Shown here: positions 36,661-50,778 of the stretch, one piece after another
Layout: the number at the start of each line of letters is the position of its first letter
Position numbering within the stretch: position 1 is the first letter of the stretch
Origin: Bacteroidales bacterium
GTDB taxonomy: Bacteria > Bacteroidota > Bacteroidia > Bacteroidales > UBA932
Assembly (NCBI GenBank): GCA_028686425.1
Contig: JAQUBZ010000016.1
Location: 1 to 51,166 of the forward strand
Direction of reading: 5' to 3'
Length of the DNA: 51,166 nucleotides
Notes under the pieces: generated by a model
Databases searched by the model: none
Seen by the model: only the letters and a program-made list of their open reading frames with translations
Told to the model about the DNA's origin: nothing
Position numbers and translations under genes: made by a program

Positions 36661-38103
36661 ATGAATAATCCATTATTTGACAAGACTATTTGCGCCCCTG
36701 CCACGGTACAGGGAACAGGAGCCATAGCGGTGATAAGAGTGAGCGGAAACAGGGCATTTGAGATTGTAGATAAGGTATTTGTCTCACGCAGAGGCGATTT
36801 GTTGACGGATGTTCCCGGATATTCCCTCCGCTACGGAAGTATTTTCAGAGGAAAAGAGCTGCTCGATGAGGTCATAGTTTCTGTCTTTAAGGCTCCTGCG
36901 TCATTTACGGGCGAAAATACAGTCGAAATCTCCTGCCACGGCTCTAACTATATTGTAAGTGAGATATTGGCTCTATTGCTCGAAAATGGGGCAAAAATGG
37001 CATCTCCCGGTGAATTTACCCAACGCGCTTTTATAAATGGTAAGATGGACCTTGCTCAAGCAGAAGCAGTTGCCGATTTGATTGCATCTCAGACTGCCAG
37101 CGCCCATAAATTGGCCATATCTCAGATGAAAGGCGGATTCTCGAAAGAACTTGCATCGATGAGAGAGCAGATGCTTCATATTGTATCTCTGATGGAGCTG
37201 GAGCTCGATTTCAGTGAAGAAGAAGTCGAATTTGCAGACAGAAAAGAGCTTAATGACTTGTTGGACAAAGTGCTCGTCCATATTGGCGAACTTACTTCAA
37301 GCTTTAAATTAGGTAATGTCATTAAAAATGGTGTTCCTGTGGCAATTGCAGGAGCAACAAATACTGGTAAAAGTACGCTTTTGAATGCTCTTTTGGGAGA
37401 AGAAAAAGCTATAGTCTCCCCGATTCACGGCACAACTCGTGATGCTATTGAGGATACAATCAATATTGACGGCATTTTATTCAGATTTATCGATACGGCC
37501 GGCATCAGAAGCACAAAAGGAACCATCGAAAGCATTGGAATCGAGCGATCATTCGAGAAAATCAGACAGGCTTCAGTGGTGCTGATGATGCTTGACGGCA
37601 AAAAACCTGACAGCTTCAATACAGCCATAAGCACCTTAAGTTCTAAAATAGATAATAAAGGACAAAAAGTTGTAATACTGATAAATAAATGTGATACAAT
37701 TAATGGACCTTCAACTACTGCGACCGACACTTTCAACATGTATTCCAAGATGGTCGGAGTATTTTCAAGCATAGTAGGCTTAACCCCACTTGCAGTTCTC
37801 AATATTTCTGCCAAACAAGGAGTGGGACTTGATAAACTCAAAGATGTGCTGATCAAATCTCAGCAGGATGCCAATATCTCTACCGACTCTGTACTTGTGA
37901 CCAATTTGCGTCATTATGAAGCTCTCGCCAATGCCTCTGCTGCTTTAATACGTGTCAGAGAAGGGCTATGTACCAAACTTCCTACAGATTTGCTGACCCA
38001 GGATTTACGTGAGGCGCTCTATCACATCGGCACAATAGTCGGCGAAATCTCCACCGAAGAAGTATTGGGGAATATCTTTAAGAACTTCTGCATAGGAAAG
38101 TAG
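36661..38103 (+). CDS. mnmE: tRNA uridine-5-carboxymethylaminomethyl(34) synthesis GTPase MnmE
   Basis: A 480-residue GTPase. It has an N-terminal tetrahydrofolate-binding domain, a helical domain, an inserted G domain with GATNTGKSTL (G1), DTAG (G3) and NKCD (G4), and the essential C-terminal FCIGK tail. With MnmG it modifies the wobble uridine of several tRNAs. Its last seven codons are reused downstream as att-like sequences, so integration leaves the gene whole. It is the boundary between core chromosome and accessory island. Confidence 0.96.
   Translation: MNNPLFDKTICAPATVQGTGAIAVIRVSGNRAFEIVDKVFVSRRGDLLTDVPGYSLRYGSIFRGKELLDEVIVSVFKAPASFTGENTVEISCHGSNYIVSEILALLLENGAKMASPGEFTQRAFINGKMDLAQAEAVADLIASQTASAHKLAISQMKGGFSKELASMREQMLHIVSLMELELDFSEEEVEFADRKELNDLLDKVLVHIGELTSSFKLGNVIKNGVPVAIAGATNTGKSTLLNALLGEEKAIVSPIHGTTRDAIEDTINIDGILFRFIDTAGIRSTKGTIESIGIERSFEKIRQASVVLMMLDGKKPDSFNTAISTLSSKIDNKGQKVVILINKCDTINGPSTTATDTFNMYSKMVGVFSSIVGLTPLAVLNISAKQGVGLDKLKDVLIKSQQDANISTDSVLVTNLRHYEALANASAALIRVREGLCTKLPTDLLTQDLREALYHIGTIVGEISTEEVLGNIFKNFCIGK
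38083..38103. other. att site 1 at the 3' end of mnmE
   Basis: The last seven mnmE codons (Asn-Phe-Cys-Ile-Gly-Lys-stop) form the left boundary of the island. The same codons recur at 40553 and 45813. The end of mnmE is the known attachment site of SGI1-type islands in proteobacteria, so the same tRNA-modification gene is targeted here. Confidence 0.75.
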
Positions 38104-38135
38104 GTTGTGGCTCTGGTTGGGCGGCGAAGAGGCAG

Positions 38136-38290
38136 GCATCTACCCCGTTTTCAGGGCTAAATTGATGTAGATGCTGATTATGTTGAGTTTGTCGCTGCGG
38201 TAAATGGTTGGAATTTAGTGATTTGCAAATCTGACAGTTCTTTGAAAAGAAACATCTCCATCATTATGGGCCTAAAACGAGGGAGATGTT
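38136..38290 (+). repeat. R element copy A
   Basis: Two hairpins are joined by a length-conserved linker. Hairpin 1 is GCATCTAC/GTAGATGC (38136-38174). Hairpin 2 is AACATCTCC/GGAGATGTT (38251-38290), preceded by the conserved GTTCTTTGAAAA. Copies C and D have GCATCTCC/GGAGATGC in hairpin 1, a paired base change that keeps the stem. Confidence 0.75.
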
Positions 38291-38543
38291 TGTTTCTATA
38301 GTCAGTAAAATTAGAGCTGTTTATCCAATAATATACCTTTCAGCATCGTTCCGACATATGTGTCTTTTTGTTCATTCTGGAAGAAGTGTCAACACAGCTA
38401 TCGCTCTCAAGACCGATTATGATGCCAAGTATGGCGCTCCAACCTCCGCCACTCCGAAAGTATTCGTAAAATGGTTCTACGTGAACTGCGCCACCGGAGA
38501 GAAATCCGGAGAAATGATGGGACTTGCTACTTTGACAGCCTAA
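38286..38543 (+). pseudogene. 85-codon frame, probable 3' remnant of an unknown gene
   Basis: The second half (from about residue 40, with TPKVFVKWFYVNCATGEKSG) reads like a real protein C-terminus. The first half starts inside the right arm of R hairpin 2 and looks non-coding. I infer that R inserted into, or replaced the 5' part of, an older gene whose terminator remains at 38668. I do not recognise the family. The frame is repeated unchanged at 40756-41013, but as part of the 548-bp duplication this is not independent evidence of coding. Confidence 0.35.
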
Positions 38544-38583
38544 GCTTTCTTCAACCTACTTAACCTAACCGACGACAAACCGG

Positions 38584-38629
38584 GAGCAATGTCAAGCTTG
38601 CTTGAACATTGCCGAGGTGCGAAGGAGGA
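38584..38629. repeat. REP-like hairpin copy 1
   Basis: The 27-nt hairpin at 38586-38612 has outer arms GCAATGT/ACATTGC, inner arms CAAG/CTTG, a CTTG loop and a single bulged A. It is followed by CCGAGGTGCGAAGGAGG. The 16-bp AACCTACTTAACCTAA occurs on both sides (about 38564 and 38644), looking like a target duplication around the insert. Confidence 0.7.
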
Positions 38630-38667
38630 AAAGCCGAAGGCTTAACCTACTTAACCTAAACTATTTT

Positions 38668-38705
38668 TCCCCACCTTACTGCGAAGTATGGTGGGGATTG
38701 TTTTT
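38668..38705 (+). terminator. Terminator after the first 548-bp repeat
   Basis: An 8-bp stem (TCCCCACC with GGTGGGGA) plus inner pairing is followed by TTGTTTTT. It would isolate the AbiE genes from upstream transcription. Confidence 0.85.
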
Positions 38706-38739
38706 GCCATGAAGTAATTATGAATTTCAAATCTTTTCG

Positions 38740-38747
38740 TATATTTG
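38740..38747 (+). promoter_or_regulatory. Predicted -7 box of the AbiE operon
   Basis: TATATTTG lies 50 bp before the AbiEi start, an exact TAnnTTTG match. The leader holds a repeated AAAATTATTAATTATTCCGAC-like AT-rich stretch that could be an operator for AbiEi. Confidence 0.6.
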
Positions 38748-38797
38748 TGGTCGGAAAAATTATTAATTATTCCGACTAAAATTTTAGCTTAATTAAT

Positions 38798-39400
38798 ATG
38801 AAAGATACTATAATTCAAAAGATTAGTAATAGAATCACTCGTAGCAGATACGGCTCTGTGTTCTTTGTGTCTTCGTTCTCTGATTTTGATGAGGAATACA
38901 TCACCAAACTGTTAAGCGAATTTGAGAAGCAGGGCCTTATTGTACGAATTTCTAAGGGCGTATATGTCAAGGCCAAAAAAACGAGATTTGGCTATGTGTA
39001 TCCTTCAGCATATGAGCTGGCCGGAGAAATAGCAAAACGTGACCACGCCAAAGTAATCCCGACCGGCGAAGCGGCTGCCAACCTCCTTGGTTTCTCGACA
39101 CAGGTCCCCATGAATACTACGTTCCTCACTACCGGCTCAGCGAGAAAGATTGCTTTGGGCAAAAGGACAATCACCATGAAACATGGCGCTCCTAAGAACT
39201 TTGCTTACCAAGGGACATTGGTGCCCCAGCTGGTTCAGGCCTTGCGCAGTATCGGTCAAGGCAATATTACCCCCGAAGTGGAAAAACGGATTTCAGTATT
39301 GCTGTCGAACACTCCTGAATGCAATACTATCGAGCATGATATATTGCTCGCACCGGTATGGATCAGAAACCTTATTAGAAAAAGCATAACATCAGAATAA
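38798..39400 (+). CDS. AbiEi-like antitoxin/transcriptional regulator (DUF6088 type)
   Basis: A 200-residue protein with an N-terminal winged-helix domain. It starts with a recognition segment SRYGSVFFVSSFSDF, then helices that read LLSEFEKQGLIVRISKGVYVK. The C-terminal domain matches the type IV antitoxin family (AbiEi/DUF6088), with VIPTGEAAANLLGFSTQVP and a beta-rich GSARKIALGKRTITMKHGA stretch. In characterised AbiE systems this protein represses the operon and counteracts the nucleotidyltransferase toxin without binding it. It lies one base before the toxin start. Role assigned by family and context. Confidence 0.82.
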   Translation: MKDTIIQKISNRITRSRYGSVFFVSSFSDFDEEYITKLLSEFEKQGLIVRISKGVYVKAKKTRFGYVYPSAYELAGEIAKRDHAKVIPTGEAAANLLGFSTQVPMNTTFLTTGSARKIALGKRTITMKHGAPKNFAYQGTLVPQLVQALRSIGQGNITPEVEKRISVLLSNTPECNTIEHDILLAPVWIRNLIRKSITSE

Positions 39401-39401
39401 T

Positions 39402-40448
39402 ATGAGCAGGTGGATTGATTTTAGCACAGATGAACGTCTTGCAATGATTCAGAAAGCAGCAGAGACCAACAACATTGATGAAACTGCAGCGGAGAAGGAT
39501 TGGTGGGTTACAGCCGTCCTCTATGCTTTGTTTCATACCAGCGTCGCTCCATATCTGCTGTTCAAAGGCGGCACAAGTCTCAGCAAAGGATGGAAGTTGA
39601 TTAACCGATTCAGTGAAGATGTCGACTTGGCCCTTGACAGGGAGTACTTTCTTGAGGTCAAGAAACTTAATTGTGCTAATTGCAGCAGTAACACTCAAAT
39701 TCACAATTTTAGGGAGAAGGCGCAGGATTTTCTTTTGGGTGAGTTCAAGAAAGAATTGGAGGCAGTTCTGCAAGACATGAATCTTGACGTTAAGGTAGTC
39801 GGAGAGAACGAATTCAAAGATGAGAATGATGATCATATCAAGATAGATCATGACAAAGACCCATCCCTTATTGTAGTCCGGTACCCTTCCCTTTTATCTG
39901 CTTCTGGCAGTTACGCAAGTTTGGAAGTCAAAATTGAGATAAGTGTACTGTCAATGAGCGAACCTTTTGAAAACAGAACTGTATCATCATTGATTTCTGA
40001 CGCATATAAGAAAGAAGAAATTGATCAGGATTACACTCAAGACATCAAAACAGTCAGACCGGAAAGAACGTTCTTAGAGAAATCATTTCTGCTGTGCGAA
40101 GAGTACCAGAAACCAGAGCCAAGAACCTTCAGAATGTCGAGACATCTTTATGACATTGAAAAACTGATGGACACCCAGTTCGCCAATAATGCTTTGGCTG
40201 ACACCAATCTATACAAAAAGATTGTTGAACATAGAAAGACATTCTACCATGTGGGTGCCGTTGACTATAATAAAGAACTCCCTACCTCTATCACATTGGT
40301 TCCTTACAATCAAATAATCAAAGATTTTGAATCAGATTATGCGAATATGCGCCGTTCTTTTATATATGGAGATTCGCTTGATTTTGACGCATTGATTGAC
40401 CGCATTTCCGAACTGCAGAGTCGCTTCCGCAACATTAATCTGCAATAA
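39402..40448 (+). CDS. AbiEii/AbiGii-family nucleotidyltransferase toxin
   Basis: A 348-residue nucleotidyltransferase-fold toxin. The catalytic GG-S motif is LFKGGTSLSKGWKLI, followed by the Asp pair in FSEDVDLALD. The rest is the helical AbiEii domain. Known family members transfer nucleotides to tRNA acceptor ends and block translation, giving abortive phage resistance in some hosts. All residues needed for activity appear intact. It starts one base after the antitoxin. It ends about 100 bp before att 2. Confidence 0.86.
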   Translation: MSRWIDFSTDERLAMIQKAAETNNIDETAAEKDWWVTAVLYALFHTSVAPYLLFKGGTSLSKGWKLINRFSEDVDLALDREYFLEVKKLNCANCSSNTQIHNFREKAQDFLLGEFKKELEAVLQDMNLDVKVVGENEFKDENDDHIKIDHDKDPSLIVVRYPSLLSASGSYASLEVKIEISVLSMSEPFENRTVSSLISDAYKKEEIDQDYTQDIKTVRPERTFLEKSFLLCEEYQKPEPRTFRMSRHLYDIEKLMDTQFANNALADTNLYKKIVEHRKTFYHVGAVDYNKELPTSITLVPYNQIIKDFESDYANMRRSFIYGDSLDFDALIDRISELQSRFRNINLQ

Positions 40449-40552
40449 TATTTTCAATTTTCTATACTTCGATTTATCTATAGTTGTTTATATCTGTCTT
40501 GTACCACATTTGTACCACGAAGAGCCTAATTTATTAATAATCAATCATTTAT

Positions 40553-40573
40553 AACTTCTGCATCGGGAAGTAG
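40553..40573. other. att site 2
   Basis: It reads Asn-Phe-Cys-Ile-Gly-Lys-stop like the mnmE end, differing from att 1 at only two positions (wobble bases of the Ile and Gly codons). It forms the right end of islet 1 and the left end of islet 2. The 43 bp to its left align without gaps to those left of att 3, with 32 matches by my count. Confidence 0.75.
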
Positions 40574-40605
40574 GTTGTGGCTCTGGTTGGGCGGCGAAGA
40601 GGCAG

Positions 40606-40760
40606 GCATCTACCCCGTTTTCAGGGCTAAATTGATGTAGATGCTGATTATGTTGAGTTTGTCGCTGCGGTAAATGGTTGGAATTTAGTGATTTGCAAAT
40701 CTGACAGTTCTTTGAAAAGAAACATCTCCATCATTATGGGCCTAAAACGAGGGAGATGTT
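40606..40760 (+). repeat. R element copy B
   Basis: Same sequence as copy A, with both hairpins and the linker, in the same orientation. Confidence 0.75.
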
Positions 40761-41053
40761 TGTTTCTATAGTCAGTAAAATTAGAGCTGTTTATCCAATA
40801 ATATACCTTTCAGCATCGTTCCGACATATGTGTCTTTTTGTTCATTCTGGAAGAAGTGTCAACACAGCTATCGCTCTCAAGACCGATTATGATGCCAAGT
40901 ATGGCGCTCCAACCTCCGCCACTCCGAAAGTATTCGTAAAATGGTTCTACGTGAACTGCGCCACCGGAGAGAAATCCGGAGAAATGATGGGACTTGCTAC
41001 TTTGACAGCCTAAGCTTTCTTCAACCTACTTAACCTAACCGACGACAAACCGG

Positions 41054-41099
41054 GAGCAATGTCAAGCTTGCTTGAACATTGCCGAGGTGCGAAGGAGGA
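41054..41099. repeat. REP-like hairpin copy 2
   Basis: Identical to the copy at 38584-38629. Here the right-hand AACCTACTTAACCTAA is absent, so the flank differs. Confidence 0.7.
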
Positions 41100-41126
41100 A
41101 AAGCCGAAGGCTTAAACTATGCACCG

Positions 41127-41216: not shown

Positions 41217-42021
41217 ATGGCAAAGATAATAGTTCAAAAAACTGAAATAACAGTCTTGAACGTGAATGAGCAGGACTATATATCTCTTACCGATATGGCA
41301 GGTGCTAAGGATGGTGATAGCAGAGCGGCTGATGTAATCAAAAATTGGATTCGCAACCGTTATACCATAGAGTTCTTGGGCACATGGGGGAAATCCCAAT
41401 TTTAAAGTGGTCGAATTTGACCACTTTAAAATGCAAGCAGGCTTACCAAGTTTTGTTTTAAGCGCGTCTGAATGGATTGATAAAACGAATGCCATTGGTA
41501 TTACTGTGAAGAAAGGTAGATATGGAGGTACTTATGCATATAAAGATATTGCTTTTGAATTTGGTACTGCCATAAGTGTCCCATTTAAACTTTACCTAAT
41601 TGAAGAGTTCCAACGACTAAAATCTGAAGAGCAGAAACTGATTGGCTGGACTGCGAAGCGTGAACTATCAAAAATCAATTATCACATTCATACAGATGCC
41701 ATCAAGAACAACCTGATACCTGCCGAAGTTACACCTAAGCAGGCAAGTATCATCTATGCCGATGAGGCTGATGTGCTAAATGTGGCTATGTTCGGTATGA
41801 CCGCGAAGAACTGGCGCGAACAAAACCCCGAATTGAAGGGAAATATACGTGATTATGCCTCAATCAATGAATTGATATGCCTATCCAATATGGAGAGTTT
41901 GAATGCCGTATTTATCGATCAGAGAATTCCTCAAGGAGAACGGCTCATCAAACTAAATCAGATAGCCATTCAGCAGATGAAGGTATTGGAAGATGGCGGT
42001 AATAGAAAATTATTGAAATAA
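41217..42021 (+). pseudogene. KilA-N domain protein, frameshifted
   Basis: Two adjacent frames make one KilA-N protein. The first (41217-41405) encodes MAKIIVQKTEITVLNVNEQD and on to IEFLGTWGKSQF-stop. The second, read from about 41395, resumes with NPNFKVVEFDHFKMQAGLP and runs to 42021. Homologues that I know read GTW followed by about four residues before NPNFK. The gap in a GGGGG/CCC region therefore looks like a small deletion (about 8 nt). KilA-N domains bind DNA and occur in phage and mobile-element regulators. The rest, including FEFGTAIS...LYLIEEFQRLKSEE, is intact, so the loss is recent or the frame is corrected by slippage. Confidence 0.75.
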
Positions 42022-42022
42022 C

Positions 42023-42075
42023 GCTTCCGAGGCGAGGAAATCATTGTGGACGGCGCAGCCGGGCAAAATGATCGG
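42023..42075. repeat. REP fragment and G hairpin between convergent genes
   Basis: The REP tail (TTCCGAGGCGAGGAAATC) continues into a G-module hairpin (42040-42072) with ATCATT/AATGAT outer pairs and a CGGC-GCA-GCCG top. It fills exactly the space between the KilA-N stop and the Crp stop, and may terminate both transcripts. Confidence 0.65.
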
Positions 42076-43863: not shown

Positions 43864-43920
43864 TGACGAGCCGAGCGCAAATGAGAGCTTGCTCTCAATT
43901 TGCCGAGGCGAGGAAATCAT
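43860..43920. repeat. REP-like hairpin copy 3
   Basis: The hairpin at 43877-43903 has outer arms GCAAAT/ATTTGC, inner arms GAGAGC/GCTCTC, a TT loop and the same single bulged A as copies 1 and 2. Arm sequences differ from copy 1 but pairing is preserved. The tail CCGAGGCGAGGAAATCATTG follows. Confidence 0.72.
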
Positions 43921-43946
43921 TGCGACATTGTCCGCAGACTTTCGCA

Positions 43947-43998
43947 GAAAGGCTGCATAGAGGTGCTCAGCACCGATGACAATGGCGAACAAAAGACG
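43947..43998. repeat. F module copy 1
   Basis: This ~50-bp module carries GGTGCTCAGCACC (palindromic except the centre) and continues CAATGGCGAACAAAA. It returns at 45430, on the far side of the RAYT gene, with one arm decayed. Confidence 0.6.
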
Positions 43999-44052: not shown

Positions 44053-44132
44053 TTGTGGACGGTGCAGCCGTGCAAAATGATGACGATTCTCACATCAAGC
44101 TTGCTCTCAATTTGCCGAGGCGAGGAAATCAT
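44053..44132. repeat. G hairpin and REP-like copy 4 (decayed)
   Basis: A G-module hairpin (ACGG/CCGT top, near 44058-44075) is followed by GCAAAATGATGACGA and a REP tail. The left REP arm is mutated, so only GCTCTCAATTTGCCGAGG and the conserved tail remain. Confidence 0.6.
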
Positions 44133-44246
44133 TGCTGCGGCGTATATGATGATGTGTGCTCTGCACAGTGTGGTTCACAAAAATTGAGAATCAGTAGATA
44201 TTTTTAGAAATTACTGATAATTTCATACATTTGGAGGATAATTAAG

Positions 44247-44400
44247 GCATCTCCTACGTTTTCAGGGATAAATGAGGGAGATGCTGAAAATGCTAAATTC
44301 GTTACTGCGCTAAGTAATTAAAATACAGCGATTTGTAAATTGAAAGGTTCTTTGAAAATAAACATCTCCCTCATTTTTAGGTAAAAATAAGAGAGATGAT
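44247..44400 (+). repeat. R element copy C
   Basis: Hairpin 1 is GCATCTCC/GGAGATGC (44247-44284). The conserved linker with GGTTCTTTGAAAATAAAC follows. Hairpin 2 is CATCTC/GAGATG (44363-44398). It lies directly upstream of the RAYT-like gene. Confidence 0.72.
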
Positions 44401-44414
44401 AGTTACTAACCAGC

Positions 44415-44451
44415 CGGATGAGCCGCAACAATAGTGATGAGCATCCGGCAC
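44415..44451. repeat. E module copy 1
   Basis: A perfect 8-bp hairpin stem, GCCGGATG with CATCCGGC, encloses a loop with TAGTGATG. Related modules at 45721 and 50147 keep the CGGAATG...ATCCGG frame. It is 14 bp before the RAYT start codon. Confidence 0.65.
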
Positions 44452-44464
44452 AAATTAATCAGTC

Positions 44465-45340
44465 ATGAAAAAAATGTATCATGTATTCAGTGAGGGAGAT
44501 AATGTGCTGTTCAGAGAGAATAGTGATTACATCTTCTTCAACAACAAATTGGCTTCGGCCAGCTATTCGAACCGCTTGCAGATGCTTGCGGAGTCGATAA
44601 TGTCCACACACTTTCATACTCTTCTCGAGTCAGGTGATGAAGAGGCTGTGAATCAATTCATTTTAAAACTTCGTAAATCTTATTCGCCATATTACTCAAA
44701 TAAATATGGCTTCTCCATTGGAGACTACTTAAAGATATCAAAGGTGGAGATATCTGGAAGAGAGTCCATTGTAAGGGAGTTGTGCTACATATTGAAGAAT
44801 CCGGTTCATCATTATGTGTCGCCGTTTCCATTTGCATATCCGTACTCAAGTGCGTCGTATATGTTTACTGAGTCATTTCTGAACTCGGATTTCAAAAGAG
44901 TCCTTGAAAAGTCAACGCATACATTTGCAGACATCAGCTGTCGGCAAAAAATAGTATTGGTTGGAAAAGATGATGTGCCGGAGCAATGGAAAATTAATGA
45001 AAATGGAATGATTCTCCCCTCCTCCTATGTCAATATCAATCGAGCTCAAGCTTTCTGGAACAACAATGTCAAGCAATTCATGTACGATATGAATAAAAGC
45101 CAGACAGATGCCCGCAAAGAAATCATCGATAGAGACATCCTTGACATCCGCAGCAGCGATATCTCCGACATTGAAATGTGCAAAATCATTGATGATTATT
45201 CCAAAGAATGCTCTCGCCATAGTTTCCATCATTTGCAACCTTCTGAACTTGACAATCTTTTGCAAATGCTTCATCAGCAGCAGAAAAGAAGAAACAATGA
45301 GCAGATACGAAGGTGTTCGTGGGGTGAAAATCCAAAATAG
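44465..45340 (+). CDS. REP-associated tyrosine transposase (RAYT)-like Y1 HUH protein
   Basis: A 291-residue protein with the layout of Y1_Tnp/RAYT proteins. The HUH motif is STHFHTLL (His49, His51), followed by a helix LRKSYSPYYSNKYG. Then comes ELCYILKNPVHHYVSPFPFAYPYSSASYMF, matching the family pattern of YI-x-NPV followed by an aromatic-Pro-aromatic-SS motif. Tyr108 of CYILKNPV is my candidate for the catalytic tyrosine. The C-terminal third (from about 180) is an unassigned helical region ending in a basic Gln-rich tail. Canonical RAYTs are about 150-200 residues, so this one is extended. It sits between R copies C and D, among REP, E and F repeats, which fits a protein that nicks hairpin repeats. 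Confidence 0.7.
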   Translation: MKKMYHVFSEGDNVLFRENSDYIFFNNKLASASYSNRLQMLAESIMSTHFHTLLESGDEEAVNQFILKLRKSYSPYYSNKYGFSIGDYLKISKVEISGRESIVRELCYILKNPVHHYVSPFPFAYPYSSASYMFTESFLNSDFKRVLEKSTHTFADISCRQKIVLVGKDDVPEQWKINENGMILPSSYVNINRAQAFWNNNVKQFMYDMNKSQTDARKEIIDRDILDIRSSDISDIEMCKIIDDYSKECSRHSFHHLQPSELDNLLQMLHQQQKRRNNEQIRRCSWGENPK

Positions 45341-45429
45341 TGTCAGAAATTGCAACAAGTGCTCGAAATCACATAATAGTGATGGTCATAAGCAGATTCC
45401 CATGACTATGCAATGTAGAGAATATAGTA

Positions 45430-45481
45430 GGAAGGCTACAAAGAGGTGCTCAGCATAGAGACAATGGCGAACAAAACGACG
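45430..45481. repeat. F module copy 2
   Basis: A copy of 43947-43998 with GGTGCTCAGCATAG, where one palindromic arm has decayed. F copies flank the RAYT gene region in the same orientation. Confidence 0.6.
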
Positions 45482-45552
45482 ATTGGAGCGCAAATAGCAG
45501 AAGCTGCAGATTGTTTTCAAAAAGTTGGAGCAGGAGTTGGAGTATGACTGAG

Positions 45553-45705
45553 GCATCTCCCCCATTTTGAGGCAAAAAATGATGGAGATGCTGAAAATGC
45601 TAAATTCGCTGCTCCGATAAATGATTGAAATTCAGCTGATTGCAAATTGAAGGGTTCTTTGAAAATAAACATCTCCTACGTTTTCAGCCCCAAACGTGGT
45701 AGATG
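45553..45705 (+). repeat. R element copy D
   Basis: Hairpin 1 is GCATCTCC/GGAGATGC (45553-45591) and hairpin 2 is CATCTCCTACG/CGTGGTAGATG with one mismatch and one G-T pair (45670-45705). It lies downstream of the RAYT-like gene in the same orientation as copy C. Confidence 0.72.
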
Positions 45706-45720
45706 ATATTAACTGACCAC

Positions 45721-45769
45721 ACGGAATGGTGACGTACAGATATCGATGGTCATCCGGTTCGTCAGAATT
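45721..45769. repeat. E module copy 2
   Basis: CGGAATGGTGACGTACAGAT is followed by CATCCGGTTCGTCAGAATT. It closely matches 50147-50196, which stands in the same place beside the fused XRE copy. Confidence 0.65.
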
Positions 45770-45833: not shown

Positions 45834-46034
45834 TCAGTCTGTATCTTCAATAAAGAAGATATCTTCAACTTTAACTCCGAAATGTCTTGCAATTTTTATT
45901 GCAAGTACTGCAGATGGGACATACTTTTCATTTTCTATTGCGTGAACAGATTGCCGTGTGATACCCACTGCATCAGCCAGGTTCTGTTGAGTTTCGCGCA
46001 GTTTTGCTCTCTCAACTCTAATACTATTTTTCAT
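45834..46034 (-). CDS. XRE-family HTH transcriptional regulator
   Basis: A 66-residue single-domain Cro/CI-type regulator, MKNSIRVERAKLRETQQNLADAVG followed by the recognition helix ITRQSVHAIENEKYVPS, and the usual tail AIKIARHFGVKVEDIFFIE. The family is small, soluble and usually autoregulatory. It overlaps the upstream membrane protein gene by 11 bp, so the two are translated together. A perfect palindrome in the promoter region (46540-46554) is the likely operator. Confidence 0.9.
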   Translation of the reverse strand: MKNSIRVERAKLRETQQNLADAVGITRQSVHAIENEKYVPSAVLAIKIARHFGVKVEDIFFIEDTD

Positions 46035-46506
46035 GACGCACCCTCCATCGATTAATTATCAGTCTTGATTTGAAGATAATGATGTATAATAGAAACGAGT
46101 ATAGCACTTGGGGATTATAATGAAGTCTGAACAATGCCCACTGTTCTGTTGACTGGAATACATCTATTCCCTTGCCAAATTGAGAAACCATTGAGTCGAA
46201 TATACTGTACACTACAAACCAAATAATTGTAATATAAGCGGTTATCGCAAGTGATGATGCTCGGATATTGCTGATATACTCATCTTCCTGCTTTTCTCTG
46301 GACAGACCTACTAATCCTGCTGCCAAAAAGAGAAAGGTGTACATAACGAATAGAAACCATTTATCTACAATGAAAAATTTGTTCAGATCAATATCTTGCC
46401 AAGTGGCCATGACAAACACTCCCCATAGTAATACTATAGTGAAAAGTATCCAACCTACAATCTGAAAATGATGTGGAAGTAAAAAAGATTTGTGCTTTGT
46501 GTTCAT
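46024..46506 (-). CDS. Small four-helix membrane protein partnered with an XRE regulator
   Basis: A 160-residue integral membrane protein with four hydrophobic segments (around residues 15-35, 48-66, 88-110 and 132-150), with charged loops, including REKQEDEYISNIRASS between the second and third. It resembles DUF2178/DUF3796-type proteins that are encoded beside small XRE regulators in many Firmicutes and Bacteroidota. No transport or enzyme motif is visible. Its gene comes first in the operon, overlapping the XRE gene by 11 bp. The role is unknown; membrane control of the regulator is a common guess. Confidence 0.75.
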   Translation of the reverse strand: MNTKHKSFLLPHHFQIVGWILFTIVLLWGVFVMATWQDIDLNKFFIVDKWFLFVMYTFLFLAAGLVGLSREKQEDEYISNIRASSLAITAYITIIWFVVYSIFDSMVSQFGKGIDVFQSTEQWALFRLHYNPQVLYSFLLYIIIFKSRLIINRWRVRHEK

Positions 46507-46539
46507 ACTTTTTAAATTAATTATTCGTCCGCAAATGTA

Positions 46540-46567
46540 ATGTAAACTTTACATAAATACAAATATA
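46540..46567 (-). promoter_or_regulatory. Promoter and palindromic operator of the XRE/membrane operon
   Basis: The minus-strand -7 box TATATTTG (46560-46567) is followed by the perfect palindrome ATGTAAACTTTACAT (46540-46554), which covers the expected start of transcription. Further TTACAT half-sites lie upstream (around 46569-46596). In the second copy the palindrome has decayed to GTGCATACTTTACAT. Confidence 0.65.
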
Positions 46568-46605
46568 AATTACATTATTTCAAATTTACATTACATTTTT
46601 ATTAT

Positions 46606-50146: not shown

Positions 50147-50196
50147 CGGAATGATGCCGTACAGATAGTGATGGGTATCCGGTTAGTCAGAATTCG
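50147..50196. repeat. E module copy 3
   Basis: CGGAATGATGCCGTACAGAT followed by TATCCGGTTAGTCAGAATT. It stands just downstream of the fused XRE/membrane remnant, as E copy 2 does for the intact pair. Confidence 0.65.
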
Positions 50197-50204
50197 AAAA
50201 ACTG

Positions 50205-50531
50205 TCAGTCGTTGTCGTCAATAAAGAAGATATCTTCAACTTTAACTCCGAAATGTCTTGCGATTTTTATTGCAAGGGATGATGCTCTGATGTTGCTGAT
50301 ATACTCATCTTCCTGCTTTTCTCTTGACAGACCTACCAATCCTGCTGCCAAAAAGAGAAACGTGTACATGACAAATATAAACCATTTATCTGCGATGAAA
50401 TATTTGTTCAGGTCAATAACTTTCCAAGTGGTCATGACAAACATTCCCCATAGTAATACTATAGTGAAAAGTATCCAACCTACAATCTGAAAATGGTGTG
50501 GAAGTAAAAAAGATTTGTGCTTTGTGTTCAT
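50205..50531 (-). pseudogene. In-frame deletion fusion of membrane protein and XRE tail (second copy of the pair)
   Basis: A 108-residue chimera. Residues 1-87 match the membrane protein at 46024 up to SNIRASSLA. The remainder, IKIARHFGVKVEDIFFI, is the XRE C-terminus. The junction falls at GCAAG, a short sequence present at both places in the intact copy (45901 and 46247). Deletion between them removes 346 bp, a length that exactly brings the two overlapping frames into register. Only two membrane spans remain and the HTH is lost, so DNA binding is gone. The promoter palindrome has also decayed. It may be a dead copy or a small membrane protein. Confidence 0.8.
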
Positions 50532-50778
50532 ACTTGTTATTAATATTAATTCGTCCGCACATGTAGTGCATACTTTACATAAATATAAATTACATTATTT
50601 CAAATTTACATTACATATTTTTTAGTTTTAGATGTATGTGTTATGACGAAATGTTCTCTCAAGGCAATAATTGCGACAAGATGCGAGGTTTGCCGTCAAT
50701 ATAGACCATATGTTCACAGAACATCTTTTTGTAGAGGATGCTTTCAAAACCGTGCAGCTGCTCACAGACGAATTCAAT

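Follow-up and report, generated by a model that had tools for sequence, protein, structure and literature searches.

The 291-residue protein P0001, encoded in the window analyzed here (the whole 51,166-nt stretch of a Bacteroidales bacterium contig), is very probably a single-strand endonuclease of the TnpA-REP/RAYT type that has the ~155-bp two-hairpin repeat R on both sides of its gene as cognate REPIN (Table 1). The catalytic residues are in place, the protein shows sequence kinship with RAYTs, R has a fixed geometry, each of the two RAYTs of this genome is paired with a repeat of its own, and repeat type is coupled to RAYT relatedness across the family; from these observations we infer cleavage and mobilization of R and a role for the tail of the protein. 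Weighing against this assignment are profile scores of P0001 alone below the Pfam and NCBIfam cut-offs, its long branch, the number of R doublets (eight) and the lack of a GT[AG]G foot at R and of the W motif, both of which published work links to REP recognition. Non-significant pairing within single R hairpins, the modest folding of copy A, a search for empty sites that found none and the loci that fail the flank tests also count against it. An earlier note on this DNA, made from the letters alone, had proposed a RAYT-type protein paired with hairpin repeats in Bacteroidales, and this core of its claim stands, with R as the likely cognate REPIN.

Table 1. Features of the P0001 locus and its surroundings, in window coordinates
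Feature	Position	Strand	Remarks
RAYT-type Y1/HUH protein P0001, 291 aa	44465..45340	+	core (HUH H49/H51, Tyr108) and ~160-aa C-terminal domain ending in helix-turn-helix-like QIRR
R copy C (REPIN)	44248..44398	+	hairpin 44248-44283, 79-nt spacer, hairpin 44363-44398; 66 nt upstream of P0001 start codon
R copy D (REPIN)	45554..45705	+	hairpin 45554-45590, 79-nt spacer, hairpin 45670-45705; 213 nt past P0001 stop codon
R copy A (REPIN)	38137..38288	+	downstream of mnmE-like gene; within left copy of ~0.5-kb duplication
R copy B	40607..40758	+	identical to R-A; within right copy of ~0.5-kb duplication
E copy 1	43946..43998	+	left of P0001 gene
E copy 2	45429..45481	+	right of P0001 gene
F copy 1 (CCGGATG...CATCCGG)	44414..44448	+	flanking block, after R-C
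F copy 2	45722..45757	+	flanking block, after R-D
'REP' hairpin core (GCTTGCTCTCAATTTGCCGAG)	44099..44119	+	between E1 and R-C
Second 'REP' hairpin core	43887..43907	+	left of E1

The open reading frame of P0001 contains the STHFHTLL, YILKNPV and YPYSS motifs from which a Y1/HUH protein had been proposed, and H49, H51 and Y108 are all present. Taken alone, P0001 matches the relevant profiles weakly, at E 0.022 and 15.3 bits against a cut-off of 23 for Pfam Y1_Tnp and at E 5.5e-4 and 19.8 bits for the NCBIfam model of REP-associated tyrosine transposases, where the curated cut-off of 80 bits is not reached; the Pfam PXB model scored E 0.018, PHROG gave one weak match of unknown function (E 0.028) and PADLOC matched no family. 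For the family as a whole, the profile match on which the earlier note had made its reading depend is clear: in an alignment of P0001 with 25 relatives (A4, 26 members), 15 members match the NCBIfam RAYT model (best E 1.5e-11) and 6 match Pfam Y1_Tnp (best E 3.2e-6), and the single PDB chain matched by the 26-member profile is E. coli TnpA-REP 4ER8, weakly (E 0.23) and with HUH and Tyr in register. At the level of sequence, these profile and alignment comparisons confirm P0001 as an HUH/Y1 protein of the RAYT (TnpA-REP) type. In a tree of 27 proteins, P0001 forms a long branch of unsure placement. Its closest relative (L035), 41% identical over the core, is split over two reading frames, and that locus carries a doublet of CTACTCC...GGAGTAG hairpins with CTAC...GTAG near the foot, as in some R copies.

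Could P0001 be catalytically dead and domesticated for another job, with the R copies as relics? This alternative, which overlaps with the main reading, would fit the low copy number and divergence of R, the long branch of P0001 and the state of one family member (L049) that has lost the second HUH histidine (HLR) while keeping the tyrosine. We nevertheless consider it unlikely, given that P0001 keeps H49, H51 and Y108, that these residues are near-invariant over the family (H49 and Y108 in 26 of 26 and H51 in 25 of 26 A4 members) and that the REP of the other RAYT of this genome has 29 matches.

P0001 had been described as about 100 residues longer than usual, which is true in comparison with canonical RAYTs but normal within its own family, where proteins measure 287 to 337 aa. 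To judge from the alignment, the extra residues form a C-terminal domain that is conserved in a large protein family, with P172, G181 and D235 present in 26 of 26 A4 members and Q280 and R283 in 25; when this domain of six members was compared with Pfam, matches were weak at most, the best being to a helix-turn-helix (HTH) at E 0.033. Between HUH and the tyrosine, 22 of the 26 A4 members lack a W and the other four carry it at a different position, and FQ, the replacement of W in part of subclass 2.1, occurs in none of them. The YILKNP of P0001 fits the class 2 motif Y---NP, the N being found in 14 and a Q in 12 of the A4 members.

A search with P0001 itself matched 45 of 148 genomes at E<=1e-8. 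The A4 profile matched 125 of 297 genomes at E<=1e-10, comprising 102 from the window's own taxonomic family and 23 from other families of the order, with a best match outside the own taxonomic family of 8e-23; we do not count these outside matches as members because this value is close to what canonical RAYTs and other Y1 proteins reach. At E<=1e-30, 88 of the 297 genomes remain, by hand count none from outside the window's own taxonomic family. A closer subset of 11 sequences as query returned 66 loci in Bacteroidales/Bacteroidia MAGs, mostly from ruminant or horse gut where record titles give a source, two of them from Candidatus Cryptobacteroides caccocaballi and Candidatus Equibacterium intestinale.

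On the A4 profile, 20 family members from three genomes (G036, G069 and G011) scored 152 to 401 bits, and the remaining loci compared, including further long Y1 types from the own taxonomic family, reached at most 78 bits, one of them having no match. Scores above the NCBIfam RAYT cut-off occurred in 8 of 118 genomes, all from other families of the order, in open frames 165 to 226 aa long; the eight proteins extracted from there have a W before the Tyr, score 35 to 51 bits on the A4 profile and look like subclass 2.6. A further long Y1 type of ~315 aa, with DHIH...YLYNNP and a different C-terminal part, was seen in the same genus (L237, L239, L240, L243, L245, L246 and L249).

R consists of two ~36-nt hairpins. 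A search of its own genome with a double-palindrome pattern that allowed a spacing of 60 to 90 nt found eight doublets, each matched on both strands, and none with the reversed pattern as control; two more matches appeared on one strand each and lack the palindromic cores. Two of the eight doublets amount to one duplicate: R-A and R-B are not independent copies because they are identical and lie within the ~0.5-kb duplication. All eight have a spacer of 79 nt, with hairpin starts 115 to 116 nt apart, and their spacers differ by up to 47%, agreeing at 53 to 100% in the right orientation versus 28 to 38% in the wrong one. Copies on contigs C16 and C22 agree at 138 of 151 bases plus 8 to the left and about 20 to the right before they diverge, and an agreement confined to the unit and a total of about 28 flanking bases suggests that R was copied as a unit. 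Folded as DNA, the two hairpins of each copy had z scores against shuffles of -3.2 and -2.6 (C), -3.1 and -4.8 (D) and, modestly, -1.5 and -2.4 (A). Pairing inside single R hairpins was not significant against shuffled arms (p 0.10), and inspection of seven copies revealed no hairpin with GT[AG]G at its 5' foot. In its architecture, R looks like a REPIN, that is, two inverted REPs and a spacer dispersed as a unit.

The same geometry would also be expected of a regulatory or structural DNA or RNA element, either paired protein-binding sites ~11 helical turns apart or an RNA hairpin pair, next to which the HUH gene lies for unrelated reasons: the hairpin spacing is constant at 115 to 116 nt and no spacer has an indel despite the divergence. 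Such an element would explain neither why about half of the genes in the family are flanked on either side by a repeat of their own nor why the repeats follow RAYT relatedness, and we regard it as very unlikely. At gathering scores, tRNA was the sole Rfam match in the whole window. On contig C38, R lies just downstream of a tRNA-like gene (identified by eye) and adjoins a 'REP' copy (L007 1287-1372 and 1521-1671).

By a pattern search of 148 genomes, R is not a general Bacteroidales repeat. In the 147 other genomes, the search gave 13 isolated matches in 12 of them, which we judge to be chance because none occurs on both strands at one place and none has the TTTT...AAAA core of the first hairpin, and the reversed pattern matched once in each of two genomes across all 148. 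Genuine R was thereby found in 1 of 148 genomes with a pattern that would miss copies with other stem ends, and the abundance of R in genomes without a P0001 homologue that would have spoken against the earlier note was not seen.

The direct-orientation flanking of the P0001 gene by R-C and R-D, the E and F pairs beside it and the four REP-like hairpins with a fragment, all described before, were recovered. The flanking blocks of R and F (44232-44449 and 45537-45757) align with 75% identity over 221 nt, a higher score than that of any of the 812 cross-locus control pairs. F forms the right-hand part of this block, and its third copy, which starts at 50147 without R, is part of a separate duplication of the downstream region; two stretches covering F (a few bases off) folded no better than shuffles (z -0.6 and +1.3). 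A region coding for a regulator and a membrane protein is duplicated at 45834-46604 and 50205-50624, the second copy appearing shortened and fused. E is a two-copy local duplication; no further copy turned up genome-wide at E<=0.1. 'REP' has four copies in the window (cores at 38596, 41066, 43887 and 44099) and a fragment around 42020-42072; genome-wide, there are five clear copies and a doubtful one, with four in the window and one 30 nt from R on contig C38. F and 'REP' are thus low-copy. The idea that one protein serves a field of several repeat families had to be abandoned in view of these counts and of the separate REP of the second RAYT.

An AbiEi/AbiEii-type toxin-antitoxin pair at 38798-39400 and 39402-40448 (PADLOC E 3e-62 and 1e-94), within positions 38074-41115, is bracketed by two near-identical direct repeats of ~0.5 kb that include the last codons of the upstream gene, which we take to be mnmE-like. 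The arrangement looks as if a cassette had integrated at the 3' end of this gene, and it is these repeats around the pair that give rise to R-A and R-B.

Two RAYTs were found in this genome (92% complete), P0001 as a single copy and a paralog of 30% identity on contig C34. Two of the eight R doublets lie within 220 nt of the P0001 gene and none on contig C34. The second RAYT is accompanied by a different hairpin, REP-2 (CGTGGCTTTC...TGATTGCCAC), with 29 genome matches at up to two mismatches (control 0); five of these are no more than 360 nt away from its gene, and the contig of P0001 (C2) has none. R/P0001 and the second RAYT each show what characterizes a REPtron, namely an own repeat both beside the gene and elsewhere in the genome. 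REP-2 often occurs as direct pairs ~105 nt apart (L002 860-1125 and 2290-2440, contig C34), and its GTGGC...GCCAC stem is reminiscent of published double-foot REPs. At the R sites of contigs C16 and C22 (L028 and L030), a common ~165-bp repeat lies to the left, at 80 and 177 nt, and runs into a REP-2-like end, as if the repeats of both RAYT systems gathered at the same spots.

Beyond this genome, a CGCGACAGGA...TCCTGTCGCG hairpin occurs in 5 of 148 genomes at 1 to 40 copies each (reversed control 0), and each of these genomes has a RAYT from a single clade (L040, L041, L046, L055 and L057; support 100/100), though our listing of genomes with this clade is not exhaustive. In a sixth genome with a RAYT of the same clade (G034, L045), the stem is a variant one and this hairpin has no exact match.

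To compare the repeats of the family more broadly, we aligned the upstream and downstream flanks of the same gene and set the scores against those for flanks of different genes. Among 29 loci (31 minus L035 and L062 with split frames), 16 scored above 52.8, the 99th percentile of 812 cross pairs, and 11 scored above every one of these pairs. In G036, G069 and G011, where 20 of the 23 loci matched by the P0001 query were taken, 11 scored above all 118 cross pairs from the same genome, and 34 of 61 named loci (66 minus 5 truncated or short) exceeded the 99th percentile (45.1) of 3082 cross pairs, with 26 direct and 8 inverted arrangements. The loci that failed numbered 13 of 29, 9 of 20 and 27 of 61, and the three sets overlap and include sister MAGs so that they are not independent. 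Cross pairs above threshold increased with RAYT identity from 0.4% (below 50% identity) over 2% (50-60), 18% (60-70) and 22% (70-80) to 82% (above 80), a trend that may partly reflect shared synteny of close relatives. For the first 26 loci, RAYT identity and flank similarity were weakly correlated (Spearman 0.16, reached in 24 of 1000 permutations), with one unexplained high pair (L002/L063). Overall, ~55% of the genes in these three overlapping sets have similar repeats on both sides, far above the level of the cross-locus controls, and the repeats follow RAYT relatedness.

A compact layout of repeat, gene and repeat, direct in 26 of the 34 passing loci, and a repeat more numerous than the gene are also what one would see if the P0001 gene and its two direct R blocks moved together as one insertion sequence of the IS200/IS605 kind, R forming the ends and the solo copies being MITE-like remnants. 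We think this quite unlikely, since an element of this kind (class 1.1) should leave near-identical gene copies, and there are none: the own genome has one P0001 copy and the 30% identical paralog, and paralogs fetched from three genomes are at most 69% identical. Moreover, related MAGs keep several RAYT loci syntenic over up to ~5.9 kb, P0001 was unmatched in phage records and its relative L043 in plasmid records. The search for empty sites between sister MAGs found none, the three length differences that were aligned being two runs of N and an unclear case.

In part of the family, the hairpins themselves appear to follow a rule. Among the 34 loci that passed the flank test, picked without regard to loops, 21 have a GATTCATCYRTCTC-like loop with at least 10 of 14 stem positions paired, as compared with 0.65 in letter-shuffled sequence; in 12 of these 21, a second, CAAGCGGCGC-like loop is present at a constant distance, and the L212 hairpin with a GATTCATCYRTCTC-like loop is probably chance. 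As this filter favors paired stems and so biased a first covariation test, we repeated the test with the best loop match regardless of stem. In 22 loci with at most one loop mismatch, 241 of 308 stem cells were paired (mean 176.5 and maximum 212 in 5000 arm shuffles), and 113 of 154 when each stem group was represented by one locus (mean 80.2, maximum 107); the best loop matches of L165, L195, L212, L213 and L222 are not hairpins. These values indicate that, for part of the family, the stems vary from locus to locus with compensating changes; loop conservation is overstated by the use of the loop motif to find the hairpins. Two conserved loops (GATTCATCYRTCTC and CAAGCGGCGCC) are common to REPINs with different stems at L185, L186, L198, L203, L215 and others. 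R has no GATTCATCYRTCTC- or CAAGCGGCGC-like loops.

With RAYT/TnpA-REP proteins and their REPtrons (TnpA-Y1 class 2, such as E. coli TnpA-REP, 4ER8), P0001 and its family share the HUH core, the single tyrosine, diverged paralogs and a gene flanked by its own, gene-specific hairpin repeats. They differ by a C-terminal domain of ~155 to 210 residues, by the absence of the W motif, by a Y motif with N or Q that is not strictly Y---NP and, at R, by the lack of a GT[AG]G foot. Like other REPINs (REP doublets), R has two inverted hairpins with a short spacer and is scattered as a unit, but its 79-nt spacer is conserved and length-invariant, it has only eight copies and the GTAG tag is absent. REP-dimer spacers of similar length and different sequence are already known, according to the accessible part of one report (PMC3733652).

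The closest comparison is with the TnpA-Y1 classification of Quentin et al. 2018 (PMC6006769), to the extent of its accessible text. A W motif is listed there for the subclasses, with FQ instead in part of 2.1; subclasses 2.1 and 2.3 with long C-terminal domains are without REPs, and REP-associated subclasses, including 2.6 of Bacteroidetes, are short. The family described here shares with 2.6 its occurrence in Bacteroidetes and atypical hairpins without GT[AG]G, but 2.6 has a median of 179 aa, WQ and YIH[QN]NP, in contrast to 287 to 337 aa here. With 2.1 and 2.3 it shares long proteins and extra C-terminal domains, helix-turn-helix-like in 2.1, and with part of 2.1 also the missing W; those subclasses have medians of 238 and 325 aa and no REPs, whereas our family has repeats and neither FQ nor a W in the published place. 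By its motifs, it therefore fits no subclass in the accessible text of that classification. Subclass 2.1 is probably TIRYT, and the family, which we set apart from 2.1 by published description and not by sequences, could be a REP-associated offshoot of it. Our literature search on REPtrons and on RAYTs and REPINs in Bacteroides, Bacteroidetes, Bacteroidales and Cryptobacteroides, outside of which lay most subscription journals and Bertels et al. 2017, returned no paper on this family.

The suggestion that the system as such is undescribed thus fails, RAYT/REPIN systems being known, but the long protein subclass does appear undescribed. We consider it nearly an even bet that this is a new TnpA-Y1 subclass centred on one uncultured gut Bacteroidales family, in which the W/GTAG-reading motif was lost and a conserved C-terminal domain gained that replaces it in recognition, with several mutually insulated RAYT-REPIN pairs per genome and with the insulation residing, at least in part of the family, in private co-varying stems whose loops serve as a conserved handle. 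We stop just short of even because W is likewise missing from part of subclass 2.1, where a C-terminal HTH is found as well.

If P0001 acts on R as a TnpA-REP protein, the hairpins of single-stranded R, for example on the lagging-strand template, would be recognized by the Y1 core, and Y108 would cut beside a hairpin via a 5'-phosphotyrosine with a metal held by the HUH histidines; joining of the cut R elsewhere would then build up the population of R doublets. For TnpA-REP of E. coli, S. maltophilia and Marinomonas, the GTAG foot contributes to a varying extent to cleavage at CT (or also CA) (accessible part of PMC8266576), and the W adjoins residues that read this foot (accessible part of PMC6006769). 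Since a GT[AG]G foot is absent from R and W from the family, the target would have to be read differently from the GTAG scheme, for which we infer the C-terminal domain to be the obvious candidate; it probably adds DNA binding or partner contacts. The RAYT gene itself would be inherited as a resident gene and not copied as an insertion sequence, and RAYTs have been called domesticated single-copy genes (in the accessible part of PMC8049555).

Altogether, the system would be a REPIN-RAYT system whose protein is, by sequence, a variant with an extra tail domain outside the published classification as far as its accessible text goes (PMC6006769). A large C-terminal domain and REP repeats come together in this family, unlike in the subclasses described in that text of Quentin et al. 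2018 (PMC6006769). With so many natural protein-repeat pairs running in parallel within single small genomes, the discrimination of own from foreign REPINs by RAYTs becomes directly testable, and REPIN biology is extended to uncultured gut Bacteroidales.
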